A DNA stretch of 64,000 bases from Mesostigma viride (Eukaryota; Streptophyta; Mesostigmatophyceae; Mesostigmatales; Mesostigmataceae), in contig RPFO01000310.1 in assembly GCA_009746045.1 (NCBI GenBank), forward strand, positions 1,517,263 through 1,581,262, read 5' to 3'. The notes beneath the pieces were generated by a model, which was not told the DNA's origin, did no database searches, and was given only the letters and a program-made list of their open reading frames with translations. The position numbers were made by a program, and so were the translations under genes. Shown here piece by piece: positions 4,782-57,205 of this stretch; position 1 is the first letter of the stretch, and every line of letters begins with the position of its first letter.

Positions 4782-7700
4782 CTGGTTTACTCTCGTGCTC
4801 AGCTCCGCCGCGCGCTCATCCGCCTTTCTGCGCTCGTCGTCCGTGGCCTCAGGCTCCCTCCCCGTCAGAATGGGCGCCTGGTGTGGGTGGGTGGTGTTCG
4901 CAGGAGGTGTATGTGGAAGGTGTGTGTGGGAGGTATGTGTGGGAGGTGTGTGTGGAAGGTGTGTGTGGGAGGTATGTGTGGGAGGTGTGTGTGGGAGGTA
5001 TGTGTGGGAGGTATGTGTGGGAGGTGTGTGTGGGAGGTGTGTGTGGGAGGTGTGTGTGGGATGTGTGTGTAGGAGGTATGTGTGGGAGGTGTGTGTGGAA
5101 GGTGTGTGTGGGAGGTGTGTGTGGGAGGTGTGTGTGGGAGGTATGTGTGGGAGGTATGTGTGGGAGGTGTGTGTGGGAGGTGTGTGTGGGAGGTATGTGT
5201 GGGAGGTGTGTGTGGGAGGTGTGTGTGGGAGGTGTGTGTGGGAGGTGTGTGTGGGAGGTATGTGTGGGAGGTATGTGTGGGAGGTGTGTGTGGGAGGTGT
5301 GTGTGGGAGGTATGTGTGGGAGGTGTGTGTGGGAGGTGTGTGTGGGAGGTGTGTGTGGGAGGTGTGTGTGGGAGGTGTGTGTGGGAGGTGTGTGTGGGAG
5401 GTGTGTGTGGGAGGTGTGTGTGGGAGGTGTGTGTGGGAGGTGTGTGTGGGAGGTGTGTGTGGGAGGTGTGTGTGGGAGGTGTGTGTGGGAGGTGTGTGTG
5501 GGAGGTGTGTGTGGGAGGTGTGTGTGGGAGGTGTGTGTGGGAGGTGTGTGTGGGAGGTGTGAGTGGAGTGCGGGTGTGGGAGGTATGTGTGGGAGGTGTG
5601 TGTGGGAGGTGTGTGTGGGAGGTATGTGTGGGAGGTGTGTGTGGGAGGTGTGTGTGGGAGGTGTGTGTGGGAGGTGTGTGTGGGAGGTGTGTGTGGGAGG
5701 TGTGTGTGGGAGGTGTGTGTGGGAGGTGTGTGTGGGATGTGTGTGTGGGAGGTATGTGTGGGAGGTGTGTGTGGAAGGTGTGTGTGGGAGGTATGTGTGG
5801 GAGGTGTGTGTGGGAGGTATGTGTGGGAGGTATGTGTGGGAGGTGTGTGTGGGAGGTGTGTGTGGGAGGTGTGTGTGGGAGGTGTGTGTGGGAGGTGTGT
5901 GTGGGAGGTGTGTGTGGGAGGTATGTGTGGGAGGTATGTGTGGGAGGTGTGTGTGGGAGGTGTGTGTGGGAGGTATGTGTGGGAGGTGTGTGTGGGAGGT
6001 GTGTGTGGGAGGTGTGTGTGGGAGGTGTGTGTGGGAGGTGTGTGTGGGAGGTGTGTGTGGGAGGTGTGTGTGGGAGGTGTGTGTGGGAGGTGTGTGTGGG
6101 AGGTGTGTGTGGGAGGTGTGTGTGGGAGGTGTGCGTGGGAGGTGTGTGTGGGAGGTGTGTGTGGGAGGTGTGAGTGGAGTGCGGGTGTGGGAGGTGCGTG
6201 GGGAGGGAAATTCAAGAAAGGAAAGGGAGAGCGGCCGCCGGATTTGATTACACATGTGCTTTATTACACACGCAGCTTATTTTGGGGCTGAAGTAGAGAA
6301 TAAATTAGTAAGGGCACAGAAGGCATGGAATAGTTACATAGGGCACAGAAGGCACGGATTAGATAGGGCACAGAAGGCAAGGAGTAACGTAATATATCAG
6401 CTGTCTGTTCTCAACAGCAAGAACTGGGGTCTCATTCAAGGCTGCCTCGCATTTTGCTGCTAAAAAATTCAAAAAAAAACATAAGCAGGCTTTAACTCCC
6501 CACGCATATCCCTCCTCAGGCTAAGCTCCAGATAGTTGCATAATGGTACATAAAGAAAAGACTGCATGATGACAATGCACAAGGAAATGGCCTGCTGTTA
6601 TAAATGGTTCTGGCTTGTCTTCAGTGGCAGAAGAATCACCAATGGCAACTTTTGCTGGTCAGCTTGCATAGGCTGACTTGCCCCAACCCCCACATCCCGC
6701 TTCCAGCACATCCCACTCAACCGCACCCTCCCGGTACCCCCATGGCCATGCCAATGGTCACATACTTCGTAGTAGCGCCGGAACGCCGCCTGGTCACCCA
6801 GAATGCCCGGGTTGGTGAAGCTGACCATCGCGTAGAACTCGTCGAGGTCGTTCTGATGGGAAACGATGAAGCAATCAAGGAGAGAAACATTGCAGACATG
6901 GTACGATGTTGTCGCTTAGAACTCATCCAGGTCGTTCTGATGGCTTGGTGGCCAGGGCGATAATGAGGCAGCCAGACGAGCCAAGAGGAACGCGGGCATG
7001 TTGCAGGCATGTTGCAGGCATGTTGCAGGCACGTTGCAGGCACATTGCAGGCATGTTGCAGGGATTTTGCAGGAATGTTGCAGGGATGTTGCATGGATGT
7101 CGCAGGGATGTTGCAGGCATGTTGCAGGGATGTTGCTGGCATGTTGCGGTCATGTTGCGGGCACGTTAGGATATGCTGTAGCATAGAACCCGTCCAGTCC
7201 TGTCCAGCGTCCTGTCCAGGTCGCTTCCATGAGTTTGTTTGACAGTTGCGTGACGTTGACGACAAAAATTATAGAGCAAGCCAGGGCACAAATATTCAAG
7301 GTTGCAGGTGCAGATACAAGCTGGGACAAGCAGAAGCGGAAATAACACCACTCCCTAATTCCTAGCTCTCTGCACAGGGGTGGCCAAGCCTTTGACGGCT
7401 GCCTTCTTCGGCTCATAAAGCAAAATGAAGCCAAATGAAAGATCGCAGACAGGTCCAACCACTTCAAGTACCGCAGATGGTATCGTGGAGTAGAGGGCGA
7501 CGGTCGAGATGGAGCCTACGCTTCAGGCTCCAGGCACATAAGAGGGCCTAGGCACACAAGGTGTTAATGCAGTTGTGACTGAAAGCAATATGCCAGCAGA
7601 TCTTAGAAGGCAGCAGGGCTATATCCTTACCAAAAGGCCAGAGACGCTTCCACTTGGGCATCCCACAATCTAGGCAATACTAGGCAAAATGCACGGAAGT

Positions 7701-10700
7701 CGTGCAATTACACACACAGGCGACTAGAACATGGGAAACCGACCCCTCGACGGGGGTCGCCCTCGCGGAGCCTAGGCATAGATTGAGAAAAATAAGGACC
7801 TTAAGCATTCACAGCCTATTGCTCCAAGGGAGGGCACACGGCTGTCTCCCCTTGCATTTCCATATGCCTCCTGCCTAGTTGGGTCATGGTACCTGGTTGG
7901 CCTGAGGTGCGTGCATTCATTTTATCGCTTCATGAGCTCCCAACAGAGGCCCATGCTTTATTACTAATATTTATTTTTGTTTTTTCGGTTACCTGCATAG
8001 GCGTTCCTGATAGCAGCACTCGCCTCCGGCACGACAGCATGGAGAGAGCCTGGAACGGAATGCACACGTAGTAGGAAACAAAACATAGGCACAGCCAGGC
8101 GCATGGACGGTGCACAGGCAACGCAATGCAGAGGGGGGCGAGACTGAAGTATTAGGACACCTTGCTATTAGTGGCGCGACGTGGGCAGCTAGCTCATCTG
8201 GCTTAGCTTGCGCATGCATTAGGGATGATTGAATGGGGACGGTACCTCCTTTTGTGCACTGCCAGTCTGAAGCACTGGCAACCGCTTTGACTTCTTGGGG
8301 ATGGAAGGCACATTTATATGGCAAGAAGCACAAAAGAAAGGTAATGCATACAAAAAAATTAAGTTCAGTTACATCCGGCAACCCTGTAGGAGCTCTAGCT
8401 AGGGCCTAACTTCTCTGATTCCATACTTGTAGAGAGCGAGCGAACAGCTTCCCTGTGCCAGTTCAAAAAGCAACCGGGCCCACATTACCTGCATCACAAG
8501 CATGGCTTTTCTTAGAGCCGGTGCGCAACGCCTGTGGCTTCCATGTTCCTATGGTTTCCAGTTATCAGTTCTACTGGATTTTTAGGACTAGGTTGAAAGT
8601 ATTCTATTCCAGCATTTGAGCTTACCTGCGTGGTGAGCGTGGCCTCGTTCTTGAGCCGGTGCGCCTCGTCACAGATGAGCAGGTCGCACGCGCCCTTGGC
8701 CTTGAAGCGCTCGGCGTGCAGGCGGAACGTCTCGTACGAGATGATCAGGATCTGGGAATCCAGAAAGAAGAGCGATAGGAAATCTTAAAGGTAGTCAGCA
8801 GGGGATAGAAGAGCCCAAGTGCAGAGGAGACGTCTCTTAGGAGATGGTCAGGGTTTGTAGGGTGTGCGTGAGACGGGTGTGCATGATGAGGGAAATGAGG
8901 TAAGAATAGGGCATCACTGTAGTAGCTGATCTAAGCACTCGGCTTGCAGGCGGAAGGACTCACCAGATGCCAAGAGGATGTGGGCAGCGATAAAGGTGGG
9001 CATGGAGAGGGAGCATGATACGCTGAGGTATTCGTGAGGGATAAAAGTGCTCAAGGGAAGGCAGAACGCCTCACTTAAGGTAATGAGTTTCTAGACAGCG
9101 GAGAAAAGAGGCGGGAAAGGAAATAAAAATGATGGTGAGAGGAAGAGCTGGACGGCAGAGCTACCAAGAATGCTCGGCTGAGCTACCAACCATGGTCGGC
9201 TGAGCGACCAACAACGCTTGGCACAGCAACCAACCATGGTCGGCTGAGCTACCAACAACGCTCGGCTGAGCTACCAAAAATGCTTGGTCCAATCTACAAA
9301 CAAGGCCTTGGACAGCTCCCCTACCTGGCCCTGGTTGGAGTGACCCAGGAAGCGCGTGATGCCCTTGATGACATCCGCACGGCTGGACTCGCAGAGCGCG
9401 ATGGGGGAGGCGCGGCCCGGGATCCACTTGTGGATCTCCGACTCCCAGTTGCTGACCAGGCTGGTGGGGGTCACGATGATCACGCGCTTGGCGACGGGGG
9501 AGCCATCAAAGCCGTTGCGCATGAGGGTCCACATGAGGGACACGCCCTGGAGGGTGGGGAAGGGGGGGAGTGGCAGGGATGAGCGGAGGCAGTGACCGCA
9601 CAGGAAAGTATAGGTTGTTGTTGACTTGGAAATCTCATCTCCTTACACTAGCTCTTTTATTTATTTTTACTTTAATTTAAAATCCAGCAAACAGGGTTGG
9701 ATGGTTATGTTGATTATTTCAAGGATGGACTGGGGCCTTACATGTTAAGGATCAACTGTAGGAAGCTGGTTCTATTGCATTGCTATAGAACCACCTGGAC
9801 GGCATGGATGTATGCCAGAACCCACTTACCTGTAGCAGCACCATCAAAATGGAATCACGGCATTGTCGATGGGCTGCAGAAATCGACAGAACATGCAGAG
9901 CGGCTATGCATACCTTACCACTGGAACTGGCTAGGTACTTCACAAGCAATAACAAGCAATATGTGCCAGCACGGCAACAGCAAGTGATATCTGGCAGCAC
10001 GGAAACGTTGAATGAGGTGGAAGACTTCATAACCTAAAAATGAACTTACGAGCTGTAAGAGACCGTGGCGGCCAGCTGTCTGTTCTTGAAGAACAGGACA
10101 CACAATACTAGAATACCTACTCCACAGCACAAAATTCCAGCCAAGCTTCCAAGAATCCGCTTCAACACCCTCAATGATGGAGACACAGAGCTAACACAGT
10201 AGATCAGCTAGCAGCGTAGGCATACCTGCAGGGTCTTGCCGAGCCCCATGTCGTCGGCCAGGATGCAGCCGAGGTAGCGTGGCTCGTTCTCCGGCACGTC
10301 TGTGCTGGCATCCGCGGGCGCTTCTGGCTCCTGCGCCGCGGCTGCCCCTTTCTTCTTGGGCTTTTCTGGCGGCTTCCAGTCGCAGAACTCGCGCAGGCCC
10401 GTGACGCACTCGAACATGAACTGGACGCCCTCCCTGCGTAGTGTGTTATCCCCCCAAGATCATACAGAGGTATTTAATGCTCGTATATACATGTAAGTTA
10501 TGCTAGAGTTGAATAATCGAGAAATACGTCCGCACACGGGCATCTTCCCCAAAGGTTGCCCACGGAAGAAGTAGCCACTTTATCCACTTCTGTGCATACG
10601 CTTCTTCTTCTTGTGTGGACTTCGAAAAATCCACACAAGGGCATGTCTTCAAAAGGAGCCTCCATCAAGAGGCAGGTGACGACAGAAGAGGAGAGGAAGC

Positions 10701-12293
10701 CAGAAGAGGACAGAAGGGAAGGGGATGCCAGAAAAGGACATGCCTTTACTCTCTAACCTTCCTCCGACCGCGGGTGCTTGTGCAGCCACCAAGACCAGCC
10801 CCTCTCCCTCCCCCTCCCTCACAAGCGTACACACACGACGCCACCTATGGGCTCGGCAAAAACTTCATTAAGCGAGGGGCCACCACGACACGGAAAGACA
10901 TCAACCAACCCATCTCCCTTTCCCCCCACCCTCTCTCACACATACACACACAACTCTAAAAACTTACCTCTGGTGCTCGCGCAAAAACTTCACCAAGCAA
11001 GGGTCCACCACCACCGGCCTCGATTTCTCCGTGACCTTGACACCCGTGGGCACGGGGCCACCGTCCGCAGGGTCCCAGAGAACGAGCGGCTCGATATCCG
11101 GCGCCAGCTCCTCCTGAGGAATCTCAGGGGCCGCGGGGGGCATGGGCAGGGGGAGACTCATGCTGGGCCCCTTGCACGCGAGCAGCCATGGCACGAATAG
11201 CCGTCGTGCACTGAGTCGTCGGAGGAGCTCGGCGCTGTGTCCTTGTACGCCGGGGCAGGGCGACTGGAAGGGCCGGCGTATGACGGCGGCTCCTTCAGAC
11301 ACGGTGAGGATGGAGGGCAGGAGGGGCTTGCGGCGGATGACGAGGTTGTCGCTGTCGTGTGGAGCAATAAATAGGAAAAACGATAGCAAAAAATGTTGTG
11401 GGAATGCTCTTTAGAAGGAGTAAGAAAGGAACGCAGCAATCATGATGGTAATTATCATGATAATAATAATTCTTAAACAATGAAGGCAAAAGTGCATACA
11501 AGAGGGGGGGACAGTGTGAAAGAGGGGGTGAGAGAGAGGAGAGGGAGGGGTGCGCGGGGGGTTGTGAAGGAAACAAACCATAGCCAAGGAATTTTGATGG
11601 CCTTGCATGTGGCAATCATCACCCCAATTCAACTGATGTCAGTCTGTCATGCCACAGCATTTTTATAATTACCGAAAGCACTATAGTATACTGTAGACCC
11701 TGCTTGCTGCTATCAAAAGCGGTGAATTATAATGCCTGCCAAGCATTCAGGCGACAGATTCTTCGTCAAAAGTGTCTCGTGCACGCGTTGTATAATCCAA
11801 AATACCATGAGCAGGGAGGTGAGGAGGGAGACTCTATGTTAACTAGTATGTTTTCTACGGCCACTCTGAAAGACGGGGAAAGTATTTTGGAGGGACCACG
11901 AGTCCCAGCAACGGCAGCGGCAAGCCAATCAAACTGCCGAGGATGAAGCAGAATGGCAAGGGGGATCACCAAACAGATAACGTACCTTAATATTCCTTCC
12001 ACGTTGGCATTCTTAACGGTAAGCTGGTTTGGCGGAACAACAACTGGCGGGCGAACAAACTTCTTCGTCTTAGAAGTGTCCTCTGAAGCGATGTCGGTCT
12101 TGGCCTTCTTGGCGGCTCCGTCCGCCTCCGCGGCCAATTCTTCGTAATCCTCTGGCGAGATGAGCTTATTACAGCCGGTGCCGGGCTCATAGGATTCATA
12201 GGACGGGCACATCCATCCACCAGGGCAGTCTTCGGTCTCATCTATACGTTGTAACGCGCACTTTTCGCAGCTTTCGCACAAAATTTTTGTCAT
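4782..12293 (-). CDS. RAD54: RAD54-type SNF2 DNA translocase, first eight exons (3' part outside window)
   Basis: Exons in transcript order: 11986-12293, 10968-11351, 10226-10433, 9325-9546, 8626-8751, 7993-8049, 6766-6852, 4782-4877. All have GT-AG borders and join in one frame (496 codons). The start ATG at 12293 has an in-frame TAG just upstream. RAD54 remodels DNA with RAD51 during homologous recombination in the nucleus. Seen: Walker A in [11 protein letters not shown] (exon 3), motif Ia in [10 protein letters not shown] (exon 4), [11 protein letters not shown] and the DEAH box in [12 protein letters not shown] (exon 5), motif III in LLSGTPMQ (exon 6), then [16 protein letters not shown] (exon 7). 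The family part begins near [13 protein letters not shown] and matches plant RAD54 best. The first 50 residues look like a CW-type zinc finger, which is unusual. The C-terminal RecA lobe must lie left of the retroelement. Confidence 0.93.
4903..6197. repeat. 13 bp minisatellite filling RAD54 intron 7
   Basis: About 100 copies of a 13 bp unit (gtgtgtgtgggag on the plus strand), with variants gtatgtgtgggag, gtgtgtgtggaag and gtgtgtgtgggat. An odd block, gtgagtggagtgcgggtgtg, occurs near 5560 and again near 6170. That suggests a larger duplication of about 610 bp (47 units) inside the array. The array starts 26 bp from the 3' splice site of exon 8, so in the transcript it is a very long C-rich tract. 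Because 13 is not a multiple of 3, most frames stay open; the long ORFs here are not genes. Confidence 0.95.
6311..6388. repeat. Three short copies of a cacagaaggca repeat
   Basis: agggcacagaaggca occurs three times, 25-35 bp apart (6312, 6339 and 6367), within RAD54 intron 7. The rest of 6198-6765 holds nothing I recognise. Confidence 0.6.
6996..7165. repeat. 11 bp minisatellite in RAD54 intron 6
   Basis: About 15 imperfect copies of atgttgcaggc, some with g or a changes. The array lies in the 1.1 kb intron between exons 6 and 7, between two decayed copies of the exon 7 acceptor edge (6909-6945 and 7178-7200). Confidence 0.85.
9158..9295. repeat. About 22 bp tandem repeat in RAD54 intron 4
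   Basis: Roughly six degenerate copies of a unit containing gctaccaacaacgctcggct. It lies between exon 5 (8626-8751) and exon 4 (9325-9546). The same intron has a copy of the exon 5 edge at 8932-8970. Confidence 0.7.
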
Positions 12294-17067: not shown

Positions 17068-18897
17068 CAGCTACCGCCGTTCACCGAGCTCGAGCTGAGC
17101 ACCGCCGCCAAGCAACTCCGCTTCTACGCCGCCGTTGGACCTGACCAGCTCCCAGCCCCGGTGATTAAGCTGACGGCGCTCACGGGGTTCCTGCTTGACG
17201 TCTGCAACCGGATCCTGCTTGCCGACGCGCCGCCGATTCCTGAGTGGCAGCACAGCTACCGTATTATGCTGTACAAAAACAAAGGTTCCCCCGTGATGAC
17301 CCCGCCAACTACAGAGGAGTCTGCATCCAGAGCGCCGCACTCAAGTTGTTCATGCGCATGATCCTCAACCGCCTTCGTTCTGCTCTCGACTGTCACTCTC
17401 GACTGTTAATTAATAGACACGTGACTGCGTCACGTGAGCATAAGTCCTCAGTGGGAGGGGAACATGGGACGGAATGGATGGTGTAAGCTATCTAGGTCCT
17501 AGTTACAGGGGTGTGGGCACCGCGGCCCGAATCGCCATGACTGTCACCTTGGGGAAAGTCAAATGGGCTTCTGTCCTGGGCGCAACACCGTCATGGCCAT
17601 CTTCGTCGCGCGTCGCCTCTTCGAGGAAATCGCTCTCCTGCAACCTGGTGAGTTTCCCGCCATCCTGATCTTCGTCGACTTCATCAAGGCTTTGGATTCT
17701 GTCCTCTGGGACGCTCTATGGGCTGTACTTGCTCGCGCTCGCGTCCCCACTCCCCTGATTAACGTCATCCGCACGCTGTATGAGGGGTCGACCACTTCGG
17801 TGCGCACTCAACACGGCATTACCCCGTCATGCCCACTGCAGACCGGCGTCTGGCAGGGTTGCGTCCTGTCGCCGTACCTGTTTATTATTGTAGCGGATTA
17901 TGTTATGCGCCAGGCACGTGCTCGCTTTGCTAGCATTGCAGGCCGTGCCCCTGGCCTAGCGATCACGAACGAGCTTGGGGAATTAAGGGGGGCCGACTAA
18001 CAAGCAGATTTTACTAGCTGACCTCATTTATGCCGACGACATCACGCTCATCGAGAAGCCGGAGTCTGCCCAACTTTGGCTGGACTGCCTGGCGCTCGAG
18101 GCTCAGGCGGTTGGTGTAGAAATCAGCCCCAAAACGGAGGCCCTGGCCCTCGGCATGGTAGGGCCCCCACCCACACTTTGCCTCTTAGACGATGCCGAGG
18201 TCAACTACCCTCCTTCAGGCCGCTTCAAGCTGCTCGCCAGTTGGCTTCCCGACTGCGAGGACGACCTGACGACACGGATCGGCATGGCGTGGGCGCACCT
18301 CCATGACCACCGCCGCTGGTGGAGCAACCCCGCCCTACCCCGGATCGTCAAGCGTGACCTCTTCAAGGTCGTCATTCTGACGATCCTGACCTACGGCGCC
18401 GAGACCTGGACACTGACGCAGGAGGAGCTGGAGCAACGACTCGACGGCAACGTCACCAAGATGCTGCGCCAGGCCCTTAACATCCCCTTTGGTTTGCACA
18501 TTAGTAATGAGAATCTGTACGCTGATTTGCCCTATGTTTCCCACATTATTAGGCACAGGCGCCTGGGCCTAGCCGGGCACCTGGCTTGCACAGATCAGGT
18601 AGAAACATCAGATAGACTAGCTGGCACCAAGCCCGCCCAGCCTGGGCGATATGTCCTCACCTGGCGTGCCCCCGGCCGCGCGCGGCAGGGCCGCCACCCG
18701 TGGACTTTTCGTGATAGACTCGGCATGGACATGTGCTACACTAGACGTGACGGGCTCACACCCGGGCAGCCTCCTGGTTTGTCTGTAATATGGAGGCAGA
18801 TGGTGCGCAAGGATAGATGGCAAGTAGTGATGAAGGAGACCACCCCCAAGCCTGTGGGGGCTCCGCGTGTGACCAAGTATGGCATTCATAGCGATTC
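17068..18897 (+). pseudogene. 5'-truncated LINE reverse transcriptase, broken (RTE-like)
   Basis: Homology begins abruptly with PPFTELELSTAAKQL and VGPDQLPAPVIKL. The frame then slips by -1 in a C5 run (about 17287-17291) to DDPANYRGVCIQS and LKLFMRMILNRL. The coding sequence is next interrupted by a 142 bp insertion (17397-17538). It resumes with ESQMGFCPGRNT, FVDFIKALDSVLWD and WQGCVLSPYLF, and after a stop at 17998-18000 with YADDITLIEK. The C-terminal part, from about 18155, has LTYGAETWTLTQEELEQRL and HRRLGLAGHLACTDQ, a pattern typical of RTE-like LINE tails. No endonuclease part remains. Two fragments of the same family lie at 39075-39838 and 40083-40510. Confidence 0.8.
17397..17538 (+). 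mobile_element. 142 bp insertion with 9 bp target duplication inside the LINE
   Basis: The insertion is flanked by GACTGTCAC at 17388-17396 and 17539-17547. Taking out the insert and one copy restores the RT reading frame across this point. It contains ttaattaatagacacgtgac near its left end and a palindromic cacgtgactgcgtcacgtg. It is too short to code. A near-identical inverted copy lies at 18898-19022, and shorter related stretches lie near 20739-20775 and 20939-21010. It could be a MITE or a solo terminal repeat. Confidence 0.65.
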
Positions 18898-26830: not shown

Positions 26831-26838
26831 CAAGTTTC

Positions 26839-32256: not shown

Positions 32257-32259
32257 ATT

Positions 32260-41916: not shown

Positions 41917-44900
41917 TCACAGTGGGGGGGAGTTGAACCGCTCCCTCTCTCGCGCTGCCGCCAGCGCGGCCTGTGCGGACGCGAGAATCGCGATCGGGAC
42001 GCGGTACGGCGAGCAGCTCACATAGTCCAGCCCAAGCGAGTCACAGAACGCCACCGAGGCCGGGTCACCCCCGTGCTCCCCGCAGATGCCTATAATTAGC
42101 CGTGGGTTGGCCATCCGCCCTCTCATGATCGCCATGCGCATGAGCTCGCCCACCCCTTCGTTATCCAAGCGCTCAAAGGGGTCGTCAGGGAGCAGCTTGG
42201 ACTTGAGGTAGGAGGGGAGGAACGAGCCGGCGTCATCGCGCGAGAAGCCGTAGGTGCACTGGGTGAGGTCGTTGGTTCCGAACGAGAAGAAGTCGGCGTG
42301 GCGGGCGATCTTGTCAGCGAGCACGCACGCGCGGGGCAGCTCGATCATGGTGCCGATGTCGGGACACCAGTGGGCGCCGCGCTCGTAGTTGACCTGCATG
42401 CAGCCACCCATGCAGGATTGCAGCAGGAGCAAATATTGACATGGTGCATGCAAGTAAATTATGTGGCCGGGTTAAATGCGAATTGTGTCCATATTCAGGT
42501 GTACATTATGGGTGCGCCCGCGCTCGTAGTTTACCTGCAGCAAGCAATCTCAACAAGAATAGCCAAGTTATGTGCCTGCCTGGTGCATGCAAGTAACTTC
42601 CGTAGGTTCATCGTGTCCGTATTCAGGTGTGCACAAAAGTGGGCGCCGCGCTTGTAGTTGGCCAGTAGTTTCACGTGCCCTGTGTACAATTTTTTTTTTT
42701 ATGCCCATACTACCTAGTTAGGTGCAGTGCAGGTACCACCGGCAAGCCGTGGTCGGTTCTCTCGATCAGCTGCGCACGCAATAGCAGATGAATGAATATG
42801 CTCTTCTACCCTCTTATTTGAACTGTTGAATATACTTGCCTGGTCAATCGTCTCACTCAGGTGCGCCCTGAAGGCATCTCAACCAGGTCCACAACTCTTC
42901 ATCTTTATCGCAGTATATTATCAAAATTACACAGCTGCAGGACATAACACCACTTGCCTGGTCCATCGTCTCCGTCCGCTGCGCCCTCCCGAGAACACAG
43001 ACAAACTCAAGCTACGTTGTGTCATCTCTTACGAGTCACGACACAGCATATCATCACGTGCAAACTAGCAAACTATTTCATGACCAGGTGCACTTGCCTG
43101 GTCGATCGTCTCGGTCAGCTGAGCCCTCATCGCCTCCAGCTCCCTTGGCGCGCCCACGAGAGGCACCATGATCTCCACGTGCGCACTTATGCCGCGTGCC
43201 GCCACCGCCAGCGCCGCCTCCGCCACCGCCCGCGCCTGCGCCGCGTAGATCTGCGGGTGGGTGAGCCCAAGTCGGACGCCACGGTGGCCCAGCATCGGGT
43301 TCGCCTCGCGCAGCTGACCGACACGGGCGCGCACCTTTATTGCGGTTGTGACAGGGTGACAAGGCAAATTTCAACATTATTGGTCATTAGGTACCATGCG
43401 AACATGATTCCCCTGCAGGCCAGCCTACTGATAAAGGCTGCAGTTTTTGTATATGCCTGCATAGAAATGTGACATTGTAGAGTCAATGAAGCATCTAGCT
43501 GTGCATGGCCCAGCATGCATCGGGTTGGGCTCGCGTGGTCAGTCCACGCACGCAAGCACTGCCTGTAGTTGGTGTGTGTGTGTGTGTGTGTAAGGAGGGA
43601 AGGTGCGTTGGCATGGGTATGGTTATTGTAGTAACATGGCATAATGTATTGGCAGCGGCCGGCGCGTGGCCCAGCAACCCCTTTTTACCCTCGATCCTCA
43701 GTACGACCATTGCAATAATTCAATTATAAAGGTCCTGCGTATAGATTAAATGGACAGCAATTGATCTCAATGATACTAGAAACCAAACCCAGCCACTTTT
43801 CCCTCGATTGCATGTATTGGAACTAACGGCACGCCCCCGCAAGAAAGCTCCAATGCACGCTACACATTCCAGAACCATACCCCCCCGGAACCATGCATCA
43901 TCCATACACCCTAAACTGCCAACCATGTTGAACCAGGAGCATGACAGGTGTTCCTGCGGGCCATACAATCTAATAATGGGTAGCATCTATTTGTGGAATG
44001 CCGGATGCCGGACGCCGGAGCTATCCGTGGATGCATTATCCAGCCCAGGAATGCATTATATCCCCCCCAGGAATGCAATATGAACCCCCCAGGAATGCAA
44101 TATACAGAAACCAGACATGCACTTGAAAAAAACACGAACGCATAAAAGCAGTATGCAAAGCAAGAAATGCGACTTGAAAATAACCATCACACTTCCAACC
44201 TCATCGATTCCACTAGCCTCATCGGTTCCATTAGCAGTCGCCCGGCTCCAGCACCAGTCATGCCACTCCTACTAGTCAGCTTTCCATACAAGTCACCCGC
44301 CTGCTCCAGTACTAGTCCCCCTGACCCCCGCCTGCTCCAGTACTAGTCCGCCTGACCCCTACTATAGTCATCTGCCCCTATTAGCCTGCCCCTTCTAGTC
44401 TGCCCCTACTAGTCACAAAGCCTGAAAGCCTGAGTGCTAGTACAATAATCTCCCATAAAATGATCCATTCTTATAACACAACAATGCACCACAATCACCC
44501 ACCTGCTCCAGTGGGACGCCCATCAGCCGCGACATCTCCCGCTGCCCCTCCACGTCCTCCGGCAAGAACTCGTGCAGCGGGGGATCCAGCAGCCTTATAG
44601 TGACCGGCCTCCCGTCCATGACCTCCAGTATACCCTCAAAGTCAACCCGCTGCATGGGAACCAACTTCTCCACCGCACGCGCTCGCTCCTCCACGCCTTC
44701 CGCCAGGATCATCTCCCTCACCGCCCCGATCCGGCCCTCCCCGAAGAACATGTGCTCCGTTCGCACGAGGCCAATACCCTCGGCACCGAACGCGACCGCA
44801 CGCCGCGCGTCGTCGGGCGTGTCCGCGTTCGCCAGAACTTTCATGCGCTTGAACTCGGCGCTCCATGCCATCAGCTTGGAGAAGTAGGCGTAGGGCGACA

Positions 44901-47900
44901 TGCCAGATGCAGGCGATAAGCCCGAAGCTGGCAGCCTGGGAGCAGGAGATGCGCAGGAACCATGCGGGACTGTGCTACCAGACGCTTGATTCTCCATGGC
45001 CGGCTGCAAAACCCCATTCTCCCGCGCATGTGGATTCAAGGCCTCCTCACCCTTGTTCCCGGCACCCTGGGCCCCGGCATTTTGTGCCTCATTCTCGGCA
45101 CCCTTTCCCTTGGCAATCTTCTTGTGGGCCTCCTCAAAAGCCTCCTCCCGGCCCTCACTCTCAACTCCAATCGCGACCCCATCTTTCTTGCCCTCCTTCA
45201 CCGCCTCCTCCACCTTCGCATCCTCCTCCTTGTCCCCCTCCTCCTTGCCCTCCCTTACAGCCTCCGTCCCCTCCCCCTCGTCCCCTCCCTCCTCGTTCTC
45301 CTTCCCATCTGCCTCAACCTCCCCCTCCTTTCCACGCCCGCCGTGCCTGCCCCGCGTGACCTGCTCCAGCAGCACCCGCGTGATCTCGCTCGGCGTCGAC
45401 GCCAGCTGGCCCGCAAACACCTCCCCCGTCATCCCGTCGATCGACACCCAGCTCTCAAACTCCCTCAACACCGCGCCCCTCACGACCAGCACCCCTTCCC
45501 CGACATGAATGGCCATCTCCTCCGCACCACACACGCACGGCTTGCCCATCCCGCGCGCCACCACGGCCGCGTGACTCGTCATTCCCCCGTGCTGCGTGAG
45601 AATCCCCGTCGCGACTGCCATTCCTGCGATGTCCTCCGGCGACGTCTCCGACCTTGCGAGGAGCACAGGGACACCCTGGGCCGCCCGTGCCTGCGCCGCC
45701 TCCGCCGAGAGGCACAGCACCCCTGTTGCGGCGCCCGGGCCGGCATTCAACCCCTTCGTAAGCAGCCGGCCGTCCTTCCTTGCGGCCTCCTTCTCCAGCG
45801 GGTCAAACCCAGGGGCGAGCAGGTGGCGGAGGCTAGCGGGGTCCACTCGCCCCACGGCCTCAGCCCGCGAGATCAGCCCCTCGGACTCCATGTCGATGGC
45901 GACGCGGATGCTGGCCAGGGACGTCCGTTTCGCGGTCCTACACTGCAGCATGAACAGCGTCCCACGCTCGATCGTGAACTCCAGGTCCTGCATCTCCCGA
46001 AAGTGGCGCTCGAGCTGGCGCGCGTACCCCAGTAGTTGGCGGAACTGGGCGGGCAGCGCGGTCTCCAGGGGCACCGCGCTGGGCTTGGTGGCGGCCTCCA
46101 GCAGCGAGATGGGCTGCGGCAGGTTGACGATTTCACGAATGAGTCATAGTTGAATGTTAAATCGTATGATGCTGCCCATGCTGCCGATGGTGCCCATGCT
46201 GCCGATGCAACTTGGTAGTGTCAGCAGGTTTTAAAAACCGACCCTCCTACTGACCCTAACTCTGTTTTTTTCAATGATTATACTTCTACATGCCTGCAGT
46301 GCTATTTACAATTATTTATTATTCCACTACTGTGACAGTTTTACATACCTCTGTCATCGTAGTTTGCTGATTGAAAACATACAATCATCGGTTCACCTGC
46401 GACCTCCAGATGCCCGCCACCTCGTTCCTTCCTATTGCGCCAATGGTCATGATAAGAATTCATAGATTTTAGATTAAGTATGTGGGAACGGCCGCATGAG
46501 GGCAAGACCTTGTAGTAACTACCCCAGCAAGCATGATCAGCCAGCCAACACAGCTAACAACTTAATCAAAGAAGTACGACGTGGATTCGTTGAAAATGAC
46601 AAGTTCTGGGAATGAGACAGGCACCATACACAATTTCTCCGCAACATAGGAACAAGCAGGCACTAACCCATACCACAAACAACTACAGGCAGGCAACAGC
46701 TCTGCCGGCGTGCGGAAGGGCCCTACTAAGGTACATCTAAACCGCTATATGCCACAATCAAGTCGGCCGGGAGGTGGAGAAGAAACATGTCTGCCACATT
46801 ATATATCATGACCATGACATTAAATTGACCCATTGATTTATATATTTACCCGCGGCATCCAGATGCCCACCACCAAGTTAAGTGTCACAGTACCTACTAT
46901 TTAGTACTACAACAACCGCATGATAAAAATCAAATAATATTATACCTATGTAAGCTATCTACTCACCTGCGGCGTGCGTATGCCCGCCACCACGTCCTCC
47001 CCCTGCGCGTTCAGCAGGTACTCCCCGTAGATGTTGGGTTCCCCGGTGGCGGGCGAACGGGTGAATGCCACGCCCGTGCCTGAGTCGTCCCCGTAGTTTC
47101 CAAACACCTGCGACGGGGGCAGGTGCATGCCAGGCCCATTATATTGAATGAACAAGGGAACTGAGGGATAATACTTTAATGCCACATCGACCGTACCCGA
47201 GTCATAGTTGTTGCCAAACACCTGCAGGCATGCGGGGACTGTTGAATAGGCGGGTGAGAGGATAGTAGGGCTACTATGTCTGGACCTGAGGCGTCATCAT
47301 GATTGCCAACGGGCAGGTGCATTCCAGGTGTAGTAGTACAGCGGCCATGACCATTATTGAGTGAGCAAGGGACCTGTAGGATTAAATACTTCGCCGGCGA
47401 CTGAATCACCGCCGTATAGTTGCCAAAGACCAGGCTGCAGGCAACAGTAACAACCAACAAGTAACTATAGCAACAAGTCTACCTCACCATGGACCGCGGT
47501 GAGAGCGCGAATACTAACAGATAACAGCAAACGTCGAGTAAAAATAGAATTGTTGAACCTGTTCAGGTCTGCCTCACCATGGACTGCACGATGATGACAG
47601 CAACAGGGTTGCCTCACCATGGACTGCACGATGATGACAGCAACAGGGTTGCCTCACCATGGACTGCACGATGATGACAGCAACAGGGTTGCCTCACCAT
47701 GGACTGCACGATGATGACAGCAACAGGGTTGCCTCACCATGGACTGCACGATGATGACAGCAACAGGGTTGCCTCATCATGGACTGCACGACGATGACAG
47801 CAACAGGGTTGCCTCACCATGGACTGCACGATGATGACAGCAACAGGGTTGCCTCACCATGGACTGCACGATGATGACAGCAACAGGGTTGCCTCATCAT

Positions 47901-49669
47901 GGACTGCACGACGATGACAGCAACAGGGTTGCCTCACCATGGACTGCACGATGATGACAGCAACAGGCTTGCCTCACCATGGACTGCACGATGATGACAG
48001 CAACAGGGTTGCCTCACCATGGACTGCACGATGATGACAGCAACAGGGTTGCCTCACCATGGACTGCACGATGATGACAGCAACAGGCTTGCCTCACCAT
48101 GGACTGCACGATGATGACAGCAACAGGCTTGCCTCACCATGGACTGCACGACGATGACAGCAACAGGCTTGCCTCATCATGGACTGCACGACGATGACAG
48201 CAACAGGGTTGCCTCACCATGGACTGCACGACGATGACAGCAACAGGGTTGCCTCACCATGGACTGCACGATGATGACAGCAACAGGGTTGCCTCACCAT
48301 GGACTGCACGATGATGACAGCAACAGGGTTGCCTCACCATGGACTGCACGATGATGACAGCAACAGGGTTGCCTCACCATGGACTGCACGACGATGACAG
48401 CAACAGGGTTGCCTCACCATGGACTGCACGACGATGACAGCAACAGGGTTGCCTCACCATGGACTGCACGACGATGACAGCAACAGGCTTGCCTCATCAT
48501 GGACTGCACGATGATGACAGCAACAGGGTTGCCTCACCATGGACTGCACAGTCACGGCCGTTCCCCAGTCCTCCGGGATGTGGTTCAGCTGGCGGTACGT
48601 CTGCGCGCGCGGCGAGAACCAGGACGAGAAGACGGCCAGGACCGCGCCCCAGAGCTGCTCCCTCGGATCCTGCGGCAGGGGCCGCCCAATCGCCTTCACG
48701 ATGATCCCCTTATACTCAGCCACGAGCTGGCGCCAGTCGTCCGCGCTCAGGTCCACGTCAAAGGTCTTCCCGAGGCGGCACTTGGCGGCGGAGAGCGCGT
48801 CCTCGAACGCCAGGTGGGGCACGCCGAGGACCACGCCGCCGTACATGGTGACAAAGCGGCGGTAGCTGTCCCAGGCGAAGCGGGGGTTGTTGGTGGCGGA
48901 TGCCAGCAGGTCGACGGTGGCGTCGTTCATGCCGAGGTTGAGCACCTGGATGCCGGGGTCAACGTACGTAGTAAATGCTTAGAAATGTTGTCGAGTCAAA
49001 AAATTATTTTCACTAGAATTGAGTATTGATTTGGTTTGGTGGCGCTTAGTTAGTAATTGTTGGTGATGTATGTTACGATTGACACGAAGATGTGAGTGAT
49101 TAGCTAGAGATATGCAGTAAAATTTGTTGATGTATAGCTAGCAGTGACCAAACCTACGGCTTCGTTAATCGAGACAAGCAAAGGGAATCAGGTGCCTTCC
49201 ACGTCAAGGTGACTACGTATATGAGATTCGCGGTACACAAAGAAACAGCATATATGCACAGCAGATCCGAAACTGCGATTATGGCCGTGGCCCTTACCGT
49301 GTCCATCATGCCGGGCATGGACACCCTGGCCCCGCTTCGGACCGATACAAACAGCGGCATGCCCTCCGCCGCGCCGAACTTGAGCCCGCGGACTTTCTCA
49401 AGCCACGAGATGGCGTCCTCGACCGCGGATCTCAGCTCATCCGATATCTCGGAGTCCGTTCCTTTCGCTGCATAGTACTTAATGCATTGTTCTGTCGTGA
49501 TGGTGAAGCCGGGGGGCACGTTGATGCCGAGCTTGGCCATCTGCGCCAAATTCGCGCCCTTCCCGCCAAGTAGGTTCTTCAACGAGGCATTCCCGTCTGT
49601 GCGGTCCCCTCCCAAATGAAAGACGGGCGGCAAAAAGTGTGCCGCCGGCATGAAAACTGGCGGCGTCAT
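41917..49669 (-). CDS. PPDK: Pyruvate,phosphate dikinase, six exons
   Basis: Exons in transcript order: 49298-49669, 48538-48945, 46967-47107, 44503-46113, 43098-43334, 41917-42393. All are phase 0, giving 1081 residues. The enzyme interconverts pyruvate, ATP and Pi with PEP, AMP and PPi. Seen: ATP-grasp parts [12 protein letters not shown] and [16 protein letters not shown] (exon 1) and [14 protein letters not shown] (exon 3). The phosphohistidine loop [20 protein letters not shown] is in exon 4; its Thr two residues before the His is the site used by plant regulatory kinases. The PEP/pyruvate barrel has [16 protein letters not shown] (exon 4), [12 protein letters not shown] (exon 5), and [11 protein letters not shown] and [10 protein letters not shown] with the catalytic Cys (exon 6). 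Usual length is about 875-950; the excess is an acidic insert in the swivel linker. No transit peptide is evident; a TAA lies directly before the ATG. Intron 5 uses a GC donor. Confidence 0.95.
43572..43592. repeat. (GT)n microsatellite in PPDK intron 4
   Basis: About ten GT units. The same intron has three aggaatgca repeats (44046-44105) and a 31 bp direct repeat (cctgctccagtactagtc, 44299 and 44330) that resembles the exon 4 donor edge. Confidence 0.7.
47571..48530 (-). repeat. 24 tandem 40 bp copies of the PPDK exon 2 / intron 2 junction
   Basis: Each unit reads gcctcaccatggactgcacg then atgatgacagcaacagggtt on the plus strand. It differs only at a few sites (atgatgac/acgatgac, gggtt/ggctt, caccat/catcat). 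The true 5' splice site follows in register at 48531-48553. In transcript sense each unit ends an exon-like GTGCAGTCCATG and continues with GTGAGGCAACC. Every unit therefore repeats the last exon bases and the splice donor; two or three units have ATGATGAGG instead of ATGGTGAGG. Confidence 0.95.
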
Positions 49670-51207: not shown

Positions 51208-54200
51208 ATGGTCAGCTGCAATTTACAATCCCGGCACATCTATGCGGTTTGCCTCCTCGTAGCATTGTCGGCGTTCCATGCCAGCGCAATTTTCCCCCGT
51301 CGACATGATATGCCACCGTTTTCGACTCCGTGGTTTAAGCTGAACAAGAGAACGCACCTGGTGCACGACACCAAGGCCAAGGCGCTGATTTGGAATACAC
51401 CGCAGCATGTGAGTTCAGCAATACGGGCGGTTTCGAATCTCTACGGCATGTCTGCTCTTCTCTAGATCCCTAGAAACCTCTCTTTGATTATTAGCACGAA
51501 TTCATTTGACTCAACACGGCCCGAGGAGATCATGTATAAATAATATGACAAACATCATCCTAGTACAGTGAGGATTTAACCACCCTGTCATGCCACGTGA
51601 CGTTACATATTGCCTCATCATTACATATTACCTCATCTCCTATACCTCCTGTGTTTTGGCCAGGTTTCATGCACATGTATCGTATCATCTAGGAATTCAC
51701 TACTCTACATGTATGTAGTTATAACTGACGATAATCTTTTATTTAACTTGGACTGCCAACATGCTGGCTCTGTTTTCCAACTGCCATCCTGCATCCCAAT
51801 CTCCATTGAACTTTGTTTTATTCTTCCAAATGGTATTACCGCCCCCCGATAAAACTGATGCTTTCCTCAACTGGTATGAATACCATCCATCCAATGGACC
51901 ATCTGCTCTTTCTGCCCAAGTAAAATCTTTTTCGTGCTACCCAGTGCAACCTACTAAAATAGTGCCGAATATATAAGTGAATCATCCAGTTACTTATAAA
52001 AAGCATGGCACGGTCATCGCCACAATATCTCCTTTACTTTCTTTTTCTCAACGGCACAGCGAGCAATGGCATGGCGACGACAGCTGGACTTCATCATCAC
52101 CTAAGTCCCGCTGGACGTCATCATCCCTCCTCTAGTAAAAATAGACATGGTGTGCTGAACAGTGCAAAACCAGTACACTAATCCCATTTTCTTTCTCAAT
52201 AGCAAAGCAAACAATGGCAAGGCGAACCATGGCAAGGCGAACAATGGCGTGCTGAACAGTATCATACTTATTCCTAGCGTTCCTTATTAATGTCATGTCT
52301 GACGCAGCCGGACGTCATCATCACCCACTTCCCGCCTGAGAGCCTGACCCACGTGGGCGACAAGGTGGTCAAGCGCGTGCGATGGATGAGCGGCGGTGGC
52401 AATCAGTGCCCGAGCGAGCTGTTCGAACAAAAGGGGAGCTACTGCAAGGGGGCCATGCCGTGTGCGCACTTCTCCGGTATGTTACCACCGCGGGACATAG
52501 TAAGCACGGATGGGTAGTAGTGTGAATGAATATGCTATCCCTCTTCGTTAACACGGATTGGGTAAGAGAGGTATTAAGGAGTCCCAAGGGAGCTGCTGCG
52601 AGGGGATGATGGCATGCGTGCACGTTTCGGGTCCAAGGATTAAATTTGATGAGTTTTCAATTTTAATTATAATTTAATGGAATTGCGCAACGGCATCATG
52701 GGACATAACAAGGGACTTTATCGACAAATGAATGCTGGTGAGGGTTGTGGGGATGTATGGATGGGTCAGACCCACGCGAAATCATATTAGTAGTTCATTA
52801 TTATTGTGGGGTTGTATGGATGGGTCAGACCCATGTGTCATAAATCCTCAGAGGTTGGATGGGTTAAGCCCATGGTCCAATCCACTGAGATGCAGTATTG
52901 GGTGGATGGGTTAGTAGACTCTCATCGACAGAGTAATGGACTGTAGAGTATCAAGGAGACAACCAGCGCAGGCCAGAAATATGCCAGCGCAGGGCAGAAG
53001 TATGTCAGATCAGTCCCAATAATGTCCCCGCCGACATTGACGAGAATCTACCACCCATGCGTATCTCCTGCGGCCCTTCTCTTCACGTTCTTTTGCACGT
53101 GTGCAGTTCAGGTGGGTGGCAAGGACATGTACAGAGGGCCTCCAGTACCTAGCGCATGCTGGCATCTCCAAGAGTCTATAAGTTCCAAGGGGGTGCCTGT
53201 TTTGTTCTTGTGCAGTTCTCTCTCATTTAGCTTCTCACATCAACCGATCTAAGGGCCTGATTGCTGGCATGGAGCGGTCGGACCCAGTTCTGGGTTTCAG
53301 GTTGTGTACTGCAACACACAGGTAGTCCTCTGTTAGACAACACTCAAATTTAAGTCCTCTGTTAGACAACACTTAATTTTGGACGGGTACTGCCCTCCCG
53401 AGGGGAACCCCACCTGGGTCGTGGGGCTGATTGACAACACGGGGCTGATTGGCCACATGGGGCTGACTGGCCATAGCAGCAGCCACAGGTGCGTTGCACG
53501 AGCTGTCAGGGTCAAGTGCTGTTGTTTCCGCACCTGGGGTGCGCTCCAGCTGGGACAAGTTGGGAAGCATGCAGGGAAGCTGAAGGCGTTGGATATGTTG
53601 AAAGCTCCCCAACTGCTGTCGGTTACCACACATGCGTGCATAGTGTCAGCGCAAAGGGCAGGGGTTGATGCCCTAGCCGTGAACTGCACTTGTTGCGAGC
53701 ACAGATGCGAGGAACAGCCTGCATGCGCGTGTGCTTGCCTGCTTGCATGCATGCTTTTGTGAACGCATGCATGCTATTGGGATGAATGCTCCGAACGCTT
53801 CTTGCACGTATCAGTATTACACGAGTCATTTATCACGTCCCCAGACTTGGCACGGTAAGGGCTCTCGTGTTTAAATTACGTAAGGACTGCAATGTATGCT
53901 ATGCTGGAGGCACGTACAGAAGTGCCATGTATGCATGTATGCAGCCACACATCCGCAGGCCCACCCCAGCCCCCCAACCCTTCTCTGCGAACCCCCACCC
54001 ACCCCACCCTGCCAGCCCACCTGTCTTAGGTCGGTTGCTCATACTGCCCATATTGTCCATAATAGCTCTATATCTATGTCTTGCCTGCTTTAGCTACCTG
54101 TCTTGGCCCTAATAGCTTTATATCTATGTCTTGCCTGCTTTTGCTACCTATATTGTTCACAGCCTACAACATTGCCTGTGCATGCCAAACATTTCGTGCC

Positions 54201-56900
54201 GGTTTCCCCTGCAAGTCTGTCCACAAATCCCTGTCTGCAATGGGCAGCTTTCGTCAGCACTCGACAGTTTACTATGCCGCTTGCCCGCTCACTCATCTCC
54301 TCAAAACGTGCATGACCCAGGTTGCAGAGCATGAGTATGCTCTGGTGCCAACGAGTGTGGCGTGTGGGCTTTGACTGCTCTTCATGGAGCATGTGGTCTA
54401 GCTGTTTTGTTCTTATGTATTTGTTCTAGCTGATTGGGTCTTGTTGGTTTGGTCTAATCAATTCTATTCTATGCTATGTCTGTTTGATATAATTGCCAGG
54501 GCTTTAATGGTCGTCCCCCTCCCCCATCCAGGTTCCCGCAACGATCAACTATCCCGATTCCTGCTATTCATTTATTTGCATAACTATCCTCGCTACATGA
54601 CATTCGTCTTGTTGATTTTTGTATTCTTCCATCCTCGTCACTACAGTGCCTGGCAGGTACGGGGGATTTCCGCATCGGCCTGTTTGACTCGCGTTCGCAT
54701 GAGCTGGGCGAAAAGCAGCTGGTGCGGGCAGACGGCATCACCGAGAGCACGCGGTACGGAGGCATCAACCGCGTGCTGCGGGCGGAGCCCTTTGCGCGGT
54801 ATCGGGGGTACCATTTCCGCATCGTGAGTGCTCCCCTCTGTATGTCCCTCCGCTTGCTTGCCATAGCAGCACTTGTTGCGATGATCCCCAAACTGGCGTT
54901 CGGGGGCACCACATCCGCATCGCGAGCGTTCCCCTTTTCTTCTTCGTGGGATGTTGTGATTAAAACCATCATAGCAGAGATGGCTGCCTCATTGATAGTA
55001 GCATTTGGGGAGGGGTTATCAGGTCCGCCTCGTGAGCTTTCTTTGCTTGTTTGTTCGTGAGCGGCTGCATTAGTTGCTGTAATGATGCACTAGTGGTCTT
55101 GGGGGTACCCCTTCCGCATCGTGAGTTACTGGTAATTCTTGCTACACTCTCCTTGGGGCGACACCTGATGTTGCAGTGTCTGGGAGCGGCGGCTGTGTGC
55201 TCTGTGTTCCTGCTTGCTTCCCGCAGCAGTGGTTGTCACCGTGATAGTCGTGGTACTAAAGATATATTAGTATCACTGTCATTATTATTCTATGGAATTG
55301 TATGTTCTGTATATATTGCCGTTTGGCCACTTGTAAGCTCGTAATTTGATTCAAGTAATGTCATTTTGCAATGCTCCTATCGCCTTCCCACCCCTGAGCC
55401 GCGCAGTACCCCCACCTGAGCCGTTACGCGGAGAAGTATTACGACGAGGAGGGCGGCACGGGCAGCCATGTTCCCTGCAGCATCTACCGCAAGGTGGAGC
55501 CCGACCTGTTTGACAAGTTCCGCGTGCACTACCCTGGGTCGGGCTGCTTTGAGCTGCCGCTGGTGAGCCATGGAGCAAGCTTTTTGATGGTAGCCTATTG
55601 TATATACCTATCATAGTAGGCAAGCATGTTATCTGTAGCAACCTTTATATACCGGCCTATTATAGTAGGCAAGCATGTCCTTCTGTAGCAACCTATATAT
55701 GATATAATACTACTACATAATAACCTATTTTAGCATGCAAGAACGTTCTTCTGTAGTAACCTATTATAAATTACAGTGGGCAAGCATATTCTTCTGTGTC
55801 CCCCGTGGACTATTGTGTCCACCACTGTGTTCAGTGTGGGTTACGTAACCAGGGCAACTGGGGAAACAAATTCAATCAGTTGAGTTTACAGGAAAGTGAC
55901 CGGTTTTGCTCAAATGAATGCCCCATGTTCTCATATTCGTTATAAATGGTTAATGTTTATTCCTAATTAGAACAATGAGTGGGGCACGTAAGGAAGGAAG
56001 GCCTCATCCCGGGTGACTATGCTCCCCTTCTACTATAATCTAGGCCCTACTATGATCTAGGCCGCATCCAGGTGATTCTGCCATCCTTCTACTATGATCT
56101 TGGCCCAATCATGATCTAAGCCTCATCCCAGGTGACTGTGCTACCCTTCTACTATGATGTATCCGTCCATCTCTCTACAGGTAATCATGCTAAGAGGCCC
56201 GTGAATCCTCATTTGCAGTATCCGCTGCACACAAGGTCGAGGAGGCATGCTATCCTCGCCCGTGTCCTTGCATTGGGCAAAGACCATAGCGTGCTTCGAA
56301 GTTCTAACACGATGCTCGCGGGGGGGGAGGTGGGGGGGTCCTTGCGGGGGGTCTTCCTGCGGTGTTTGTGGATCACGAGGAGGTGAGGAAATTTGAACAA
56401 ACCCAGCTGTGGGTTTGCTCTGCAAGATTTGTTTGTGTGTGCAGTGTGTTGAGAGCAAGACTGACACGAAACCAACCCAAAGCCATCGCAAAACCAACCC
56501 AAAATGAACCCAAAACCAATCCCGAGTCAGCAACGAGCATGCTACGCACCCCAAACGGACTCAAGACTAATCTGACATCAACCCCAAACCCACCCCAAAT
56601 TGATCCCAAACCAACTCTAATAAAAACCCACCCTGTGCGCAGGACACCTGGGGCACCCTGGAGATCTCCATCGAGCGTGCCGGCGAGCAGCAGTTCCGCG
56701 TCTCCCTCTCCATGAACGGGCTTGGCTACACCCTGCTCGACGATTGGGCCGCGGGGGGGGCCGTGAGCGCGGAGGCCGAGTACATGCGGTACCACAAACC
56801 GCTCGCGCGGTCGAGGCGACGGGCCATGGTCGATAGCAGCCTGCCCGAGTGGATCGACACGATGGCGATTCAGTTCCCGAATGGGCGGCGGTACAAGTGA
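51208..56900 (+). CDS. Secreted protein of unknown function, five exons
   Basis: Exons: 51208-51408, 52308-52476, 54657-54823, 55407-55562, 56643-56900. All have GT-AG borders and join in one frame (316 residues). The N-terminus carries a signal peptide (hydrophobic YAVCLLVALSAF, likely cleaved after HASA). The rest shows spaced Cys residues (NQCPSELF, YCKGAMPCAH, VPCSIY, GSGCFEL) that suggest disulfides. Short beta-rich strands include GTGDFRIGLFDSRSH, YRGYHFRI, LEISIERAGEQQFRVSLSM and IDTMAIQFPNGRRYK. The pattern resembles a jelly-roll or lectin-like secreted domain, but I cannot name the family. Introns are large. Copies of the exon edges lie in introns 1, 2 and 3 and downstream of the stop. 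Confidence 0.8.
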
Positions 56901-57205
56901 GGATAATGCGTGGTCTTGTTCTGGGCATACTGCGCGGGTTTCTGGACATGATGGCGGTATGAGACCCGAATGAGCGGCGATACAAAGCGTGACCTGCTTG
57001 GGATTGGTCGTGGGTACCTGTAACGAGGTGTTTCGTACAGGATGGATGGCTATTTCACACGACGGCAACCCAGTTCCCCGCTAGGCGGTGGTGCCAGTGA
57101 GAGGCTTGGAAGAGAGGCCTGTGGTTTGCAATGCATGAGCGCCGTTTAATGGCCAGACTGAGTATGCGTGTGAGGGTACCAGTGTACTTGTGGGTATGTT
57201 TGTGT
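56901..57205. other. 3' flank with decayed copies of the last exon end
   Basis: The true end (ttcccgaatgggcggcggta, 56874-56893) recurs in weaker form at 56961-56992 (gacccgaatgagcggcgata) and at 57068-57101 (cagttccccgctaggcggtg), and possibly near 57505. No other feature was seen. Confidence 0.6.

Follow-up and report, generated by a model that had tools for sequence, protein, structure and literature searches.

Copies of exon edges inside Mesostigma viride introns as probable footprints of local tandem duplication

Introduction

Why would an intron contain repeated copies of the edge of its own exon? The question is raised by a 64,000-nucleotide stretch of the Mesostigma viride genome (hereafter the window), in which introns of three genes hold sense-strand copies of the exon ends that border them. 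The published assembly of this alga comprises 441,847,188 bp, with a mean intron of 1142 bp and repeats making up 30.1% of intron space, according to the accessible part of the assembly paper (PMC6947507). An initial annotation of the window attributed the copies to a local duplication process that is seeded or tolerated at splice junctions and lengthens introns stepwise. Here, we examine where such copies lie, whether junctions are distinguished from other non-coding DNA, how the copies change after they arise, and which explanation fits them best.

Genes in the window

The copies were found in and beside the following genes.

41917-49669, minus strand: PPDK gene; exons 49669-49298, 48945-48538, 47107-46967, 46113-44503, 43334-43098 and 42393-41917
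4782-12285, minus strand: RAD54 gene, partial; exon 1 (to 11986), then 11351-10968, 10433-10226, 9546-9325, 8751-8626, 8049-7993, 6852-6766 and 4877-4782
52308-56900, plus strand: third gene, partial; exons 52308-52476, 54657-54823, 55407-55562 and 56643-56900 (to the stop codon)

Two of these had already been named as PPDK and RAD54, and domain searches agree that both are real genes. Joined at their outermost splice sites, the six PPDK exons give a frame of 1081 aa without internal stops that matches the Pfam domains PPDK_N, PEP-utilizers and PEP-utilizers_C. RAD54 yields a partial open frame of 461 aa with a Pfam SNF2 domain, and its top PDB match is the RAD54-like chain 1z3i. For RAD54, 12285 is only the point from which exon 1 was read, and exon 8 (4877-4782) was placed by prediction and reading only. 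The third gene gave an open frame of 249 aa (partial) from its four exons; it had no Pfam match, and exons upstream of 52308 were not found. The window test set consisted of 14 introns of these three genes, and hence of 28 junctions (14 donors and 14 acceptors).

Approximately 70% of RAD54 intron 7 is a 13-bp satellite of 102 copies (4880-6206), which abuts the acceptor of predicted exon 8. Rich in pyrimidines and placed there, it may provide the intron with its 3' splice-site region.

Exon-edge copies in the window

The last or first 40 exon bases were compared with the adjacent intron in the sense orientation. Under strict scoring, which overlooks decayed copies, 10 of the 28 junctions beat all 40 dinucleotide shuffles of their own intron. 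Lenient scoring (score at least 85) detected copies at six of 14 donors and five of 14 acceptors (11/28); a 40-bp array in PPDK is absent from this count because the exon part of each unit is too short for a score of 85. Adding it brings the total to 12 of the 28 junctions with copies, in sense, of the exon edge beside them. The earlier statement that such copies lie beside at least ten junctions of three genes is thus borne out, and the observation is confirmed as real and wider than first noted. Some single junctions have two or three copies. Moreover, a sensitive self-comparison of the three gene regions returned 107 direct and one inverted local repeats, arrays included. The copies are as follows.

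47564-48549, minus strand: 40-bp x 24.5 tandem array at the PPDK exon 2 donor end; unit of 12 exon nt, donor and intron start
47221-47163, 47430-47383 and a weak third at 47309-47249, minus strand: PPDK exon 3 acceptor-edge copies (scores 109, 99 and 80)
46440-46397 and 46878-46850, minus strand: PPDK exon 3 donor-edge copies (scores 109 and 82)
43506-43559, minus strand: PPDK exon 5 acceptor-edge copy (score 104)
42988-42958, 42890-42840 and 42785-42750, minus strand: three PPDK exon 5 donor-edge copies (GC-type donor; scores 119, 123 and 93)
42662-42606 and 42534-42479, minus strand: two PPDK exon 6 acceptor-edge copies (scores 132 and 98)
10845-10893, minus strand: RAD54 exon 2 donor-edge copy (score 156)
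8979-8933 and 8854-8802, minus strand: two RAD54 exon 5 acceptor-edge copies (scores 134 and 122)
8489-8532, minus strand: RAD54 exon 5 donor-edge copy (score 101)
6899-6936, minus strand: RAD54 exon 7 acceptor-edge copy (score 99)
52081-52111, plus strand: acceptor-edge copy of third-gene exon 52308-52476, matching 52305-52335 (31 nt at 84%; outside the 28 junctions tested)
52586-52630, plus strand: donor-edge copy of third-gene exon 52308-52476 (score 108)
54868-54921 and 55093-55120, plus strand: donor-edge copies of third-gene exon 54657-54823 (scores 87 and 95)
56930-56992 and 57057-57100, plus strand: third-gene stop-codon end, copied twice in DNA that is not part of an intron (scores 149 and 121)

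The array at PPDK exon 2, with its 24.5 units, had been described as fresh, with 24 near-identical units. TRF called it at 47570-48549 with 97% matches, and a second array scan placed it at 47564-48549 (period 40, identity 0.97) in the donor-spanning class. At the donor position 21 units read GTGAGGCA and four read ATGAGGCA, with the real site counted in, so about 20 copies retain the donor. At RAD54 exon 2 the similarity of the donor copy continues into the intron side (44/58 identical), which none of 160 null comparisons equalled. The two stop-end copies of the third gene compare with a maximum score of 91 in 200 mononucleotide shuffles; the stretch reaching 57101, formerly taken for a splice-junction copy, belongs here. 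A further row, at a distance of 595 from the PPDK exon 2 acceptor, is not a real copy and extends into exon 1.

GC is the donor dinucleotide of PPDK exon 5 and recurs in two of the copies of that edge. For the predicted donors of loci L009-L028 and the window genes, approximately 11% of those in the trained matrix start with GC rather than GT, a share that seems high. Just beyond the third gene, 57204-57454 consists of about 42 GTGAGG units, close to GTGAG, the favoured 5' splice-site letters of this genome.

Survey of further loci

Twenty further loci of 10 kb each were sampled from the same genome (439.9 Mb, 2243 sequences), making up approximately 200 kb of 440 Mb. Eighteen of them were placed on SNF2-domain matches and two flank the window; they were not chosen for repeats. 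Gene models in these loci (129 exons) are predictions from a simple gene-finding model built on the window genes. On its own training genes, the model placed 26 of 28 splice edges exactly, missed the 57-base RAD54 exon and put one false intron into PPDK exon 4.

We then compared exon-edge 45-mers with the adjacent 800 bases at a score of at least 85. Of 230 predicted exon edges, 31 had a sense copy; the controls gave 1/230 (antisense), 2/230 (exon centres) and 2/207 (wrong-side flank). In this sample of about 200 kb of 440 Mb, the excess of edge over centre matches that the initial annotation had proposed to check is therefore present. Seven predicted exons were oriented opposite to the exons around them (L015 4290, L017 8889, L017 4929, L012 1544, L016 4679, L020 4470 and L022 6445). 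The count of 31/230 keeps all rows and becomes 29/217 without these seven, which were removed by hand, after that count had been seen, from all later exon-row counts. For the examination of the freshest cases only L015 4290 and L017 8889 were removed; L025 701 was additionally left out of the intron-side, decay and junction-reach counts; and exon masking in the intron-interior and lenient edge counts used the full exon list, the seven included.

Position and anatomy of the copies

All 39 aligned copies with a score of at least 85 ended within 5 nt of the junction, and 31 ended exactly at it, in a local alignment free to stop anywhere. The median distance between a copy and its own junction was 166 nt, and 37 of 41 copies were nearer to that junction than to the other intron end. 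None of the 41 came within 12 nt of the opposite end; one lay 40 nt from it.

The freshest cases are plain tandem duplications. The exon at L018 7432-7654 has a 101-bp unit made of exon tail and intron head, the exon at L016 5921-6071 is followed by 28-bp units with a donor at the end of each, and at acceptors in L026 and L023 the preceding copies share intron sequence. Like the PPDK array, arrays at L010, L011 and L016 repeat, head to tail, a unit of exon end plus intron start, and are thus junction-spanning minisatellites. Across 40 copies, the intron side of the copy was similar to the real intron side in 12 cases at p ≤ 0.05 and in nine at p ≤ 0.0125, the spurious PPDK exon 2 acceptor row being still inside both this set and the set of 39. 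A faint intron-side signal is to be expected in older copies, because both intron members have changed. However, even among the four copies with approximately 90% or more exon identity, intron-side similarity was found only at L012 2374-2503, with no significant similarity at L012 503-670, L013 3527-4167 and L013 5534-5832; part of the events were therefore more complex than a simple duplication or were later rearranged. Overall, copies in the sense orientation and on the intron side, with near-zero counts for antisense, wrong-side and exon-centre matches, are as tandem duplication across the junction would leave them.

Comparison of junctions with other non-coding DNA

Copying was not confined to exon edges. 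Among intron-interior segments, 48/539 had copies in sense and 1/539 in antisense; in non-coding DNA outside these introns the figures were 72/340 and 3/340. With flanks taken from the same intron, copies were recorded for 24/156 exon edges, 16/140 segments of intron just inside junctions and 76/639 interior segments; neither the edges (p = 0.28) nor the junction-adjacent intron (p = 1) differed clearly from the interior. Clean arrays held 10,773 of 77,632 intron bases. Among the clean fresh arrays in 98 introns, 60 were intron-only, four spanned a donor and none an acceptor, and one further array (two rows) lay in an exon. The four junction-spanning cases in 64 compare with 3.2 expected under uniform placement. 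It had been argued that random repeats would not centre on exon-intron borders again and again. This argument is not supported, as the number of fresh arrays across junctions is about that given by random placement, and exon edges do not clearly exceed the interior. Within the power of the sample, the frequency of duplication was not clearly related to junctions.

One of four stop-codon ends points the same way. Four of 33 rows in a stop-edge listing were judged by reading to be true stop ends, GTGAG donors containing TGA and so mimicking stops. One of the four, that of the third gene, has copies, and none were found at the ends of PPDK, of a Sua5 frame and of L028 2899-3345. As there is no splice site at the stop end of the third gene, copying is not limited to junctions.

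Against this stand the counts split by score. In the class of 85-150, exon edges (22/156) exceeded the interior (35/639, p = 0.0007), and the comparison with junction-adjacent intron (11/140) gave p = 0.098. In the class of at least 150, edges (2/156) fell below the interior (41/639, p = 0.009). A simulated uniform process came out near parity: its edge-to-interior ratio ran from 0.66 to 1.23 for the middle class and from 0.85 to 1.22 for all copies, while the observed values were approximately 2.6 and 1.29. On our reading, junctions look special because a conserved exon is a near-fixed reference for old copies, whereas in intron-intron pairs both members decay. Short fresh units, which carry a small exon share, might also make edge copies score in the middle rather than the high class. 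This effect and the slower decay of pairs in which one partner is conserved would both push in the observed direction. We give only a small chance to the stronger view that duplications straddling a junction arise or are kept two to three times as often as others, which would make junctions preferred points of intron growth in this lineage, with decoy sites acting as a buffer.

Fate of the copies

Copy and real exon mismatched at 97/558 first (17%), 101/554 second (18%) and 139/547 third (25%) codon positions, and 26 of 39 copies had indels. The copies are free of coding constraint; the excess at position 3 is probably due to synonymous drift of the real exon. Splice dinucleotides were kept in 15 of 22 donor copies and 11 of 17 acceptor copies (26/39). 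With the first two codon positions mismatched at 18%, neutrality would leave approximately 0.68 intact, so decoys are neither kept nor purged detectably. The copies look neutral and decay like neutral sequence, in line with the previous suggestion that duplicates carrying a splice site can be neutral.

Origin of the copies and alternative explanations

The observed features to be explained are the almost purely direct orientation of the copies, their extent up to a junction that lies close by, the tandem geometry of fresh cases, the similar frequency of copying in intron interiors, and the neutral-looking decay. Taken together, they make it likely that the copies are footprints of a widespread, position-blind local tandem duplication of the minisatellite type, with junctions being tolerated places rather than special targets. 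Non-coding DNA is often duplicated head to tail, in clean units that measured 18-101 bp here and are sometimes amplified to at least 20 copies, possibly by replication slippage or unequal exchange. Most duplications within exons would be lost by selection. If such a unit lies across a splice junction, the exon would stay intact through use of the outermost site; the event would therefore survive and the intron would grow. The extra splice-site copy would then slowly decay inside the intron. The original proposal of local duplication that lengthens introns stepwise, splice sites included and with copies ranging from fresh to decayed, holds up in this form. Of its two options for junctions, tolerance is retained and seeding is not, in view of the counts for junction-adjacent intron and fresh arrays and of the stop-edge copies.

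Duplication might instead be preferentially initiated or retained at junctions, for example through transcription-coupled R-loops or because decoys aid splicing. The edge excess in the 85-150 class speaks for such a preference, as do the 12 affected window junctions and the fact that all 39 aligned copies reach the junction. Nevertheless, we hold it to be unlikely, as junction-adjacent intron is not duplicated above the interior, fresh arrays span junctions about as often as uniform placement predicts, a stop-codon edge is copied too, and splice dinucleotides decay at the neutral rate. This last rate also bears on the idea that the copies are functional alternative exons, or exons with alternative splice sites, under selection. 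Two-thirds of the copies do keep the dinucleotide (26/39), and most donors in the PPDK array are identical to the real one, but such retention equals the neutral expectation, while the spread of mismatches over codon positions and the indels in 26 of 39 copies make selection on them very improbable.

A further reading takes the copies as remains of intron gain, in which exonic proto-splice segments were duplicated in tandem. It would share with the favoured position-blind process both tandem duplication and the presence of exon sequence inside introns. The two differ in geometry. By our own derivation, intron gain would put the upstream exon end at the 3' end of the intron and the downstream exon start at its 5' end; the copies are instead clustered near their own junction (37/41) and absent from the 12 nt next to the opposite end (0/41), which leaves intron gain barely credible and makes intron lengthening separable from it. 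Equally hard to credit is an assembly artefact or chance similarity. The 40-bp array of PPDK could, taken alone, be mis-sized in the assembly, but the accessible text on the Mesostigma viride assembly describes PacBio reads and optical maps (PMC6947507), and decayed copies at approximately 65-90% identity are unlike products of mis-assembly. Chance similarity is at odds with the near-zero antisense, exon-centre and wrong-side controls.

Two other candidates were rejected. Templated insertion in end-joining repair should yield both orientations, and a dispersed form of it was set aside on the near absence of antisense copies. No introners or introner-like elements showed up in the window: when it was compared with itself by BLASTN (low-complexity filter on, three arrays excluded), no match was listed between introns of different genes among the three.

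Relation to known systems

Intron gain by tandem duplication has reportedly been proposed for a potato intron, and a 2007 paper is said, going by its title, to treat tandem arrays as a source of introns; that title concerns intron origin, not growth of existing introns. The same kind of gain was proposed for some Drosophila introns, in the part of the source available (PMC2891723). So far as these accounts extend, the likeness to Mesostigma lies in local tandem duplication that turns exonic into intronic sequence. The difference is that a new intron arises there, whereas here existing introns lengthen and the copies sit at their own junction rather than at the opposite end.

Another close likeness is to human CBS, where, according to the accessible text of one source, the 31-bp VNTR c.1444_1467+7(16_21) forms a tandem array of 16-21 copies across a splice junction (PMC2630376). 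By its coordinates, the unit consists of 24 exon nt and 7 intron nt, and hence of exon end plus intron start as in PPDK. The VNTR described there is, however, one polymorphic locus in one gene, whereas in Mesostigma the same anatomy recurs at many sites, and decayed copies occur alongside. In the same text, the CBS variant 844ins68 is a harmless duplication of part of an intron/exon junction, after which splicing strongly favours one site (PMC2630376). A portion of the junction is duplicated in both systems, but 844ins68, as presented, is a single polymorphism with known splicing, while the Mesostigma copies are diverged, lie at many junctions and are known from DNA alone. Since this source documents for CBS both a tandem duplication and a VNTR that crosses a splice junction, the statement in the initial annotation that no named mechanism covers the pattern cannot be kept.

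On a genome-wide scale, a survey of 12 genomes centred on Daphnia pulex reports that tandem repeats of 7-50 bp add much of the repeat content in all 12, and that repeat density is lowest in coding regions in the three arthropods compared by region (PMC3152781). In the accessible portion of that survey the word 'splice' never occurs and junction-spanning units are not treated (PMC3152781). Among the titles and abstract openings covered, which took in few subscription papers, we found no report of junction-spanning duplication as a genome-wide route of intron growth.

The copies illustrate a route by which introns can grow harmlessly, and approximately one exon edge in seven in our sample has such a copy (24/156). 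Since each exon edge is a nearly fixed reference for older and younger copies, intron lengthening can be ordered in time. Some loci are natural tests of splice-site choice; in PPDK, for instance, the real donor is followed by some 20 near-identical ones. Furthermore, duplicated edges could lead exon finders astray where their splice sites are intact, which calls for caution in gene prediction in this genome.

Other features of the window and assembly

Outside the three genes, the window holds the following.

2641-3489: weak Phage_integrase-like frame (E 1e-6)
17406-19022: inverted repeats (143-nt alignment, 94% identical) flanking a 315-aa frame without a Pfam match
21218-22288: DDE_1 endonuclease-like frame
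23762-29728, minus strand: Helitron-like frames, with Helitron_like_N at 27506-29728, PIF1 at 23762-26872 and a 155-bp tandem duplication between them (26949-27257)
31344-32270: 375-bp direct repeats, 99.7% identical, holding 170-bp units with a 28-bp inverted repeat

The region at 17406-19022 looks like a DNA transposon. Elsewhere in the assembly, contigs C277, C602, C938, C949, C969 and C2160 contain many full and broken copies of psaA and psaB in both orientations, and these plastid contigs seem to be redundantly or wrongly assembled.
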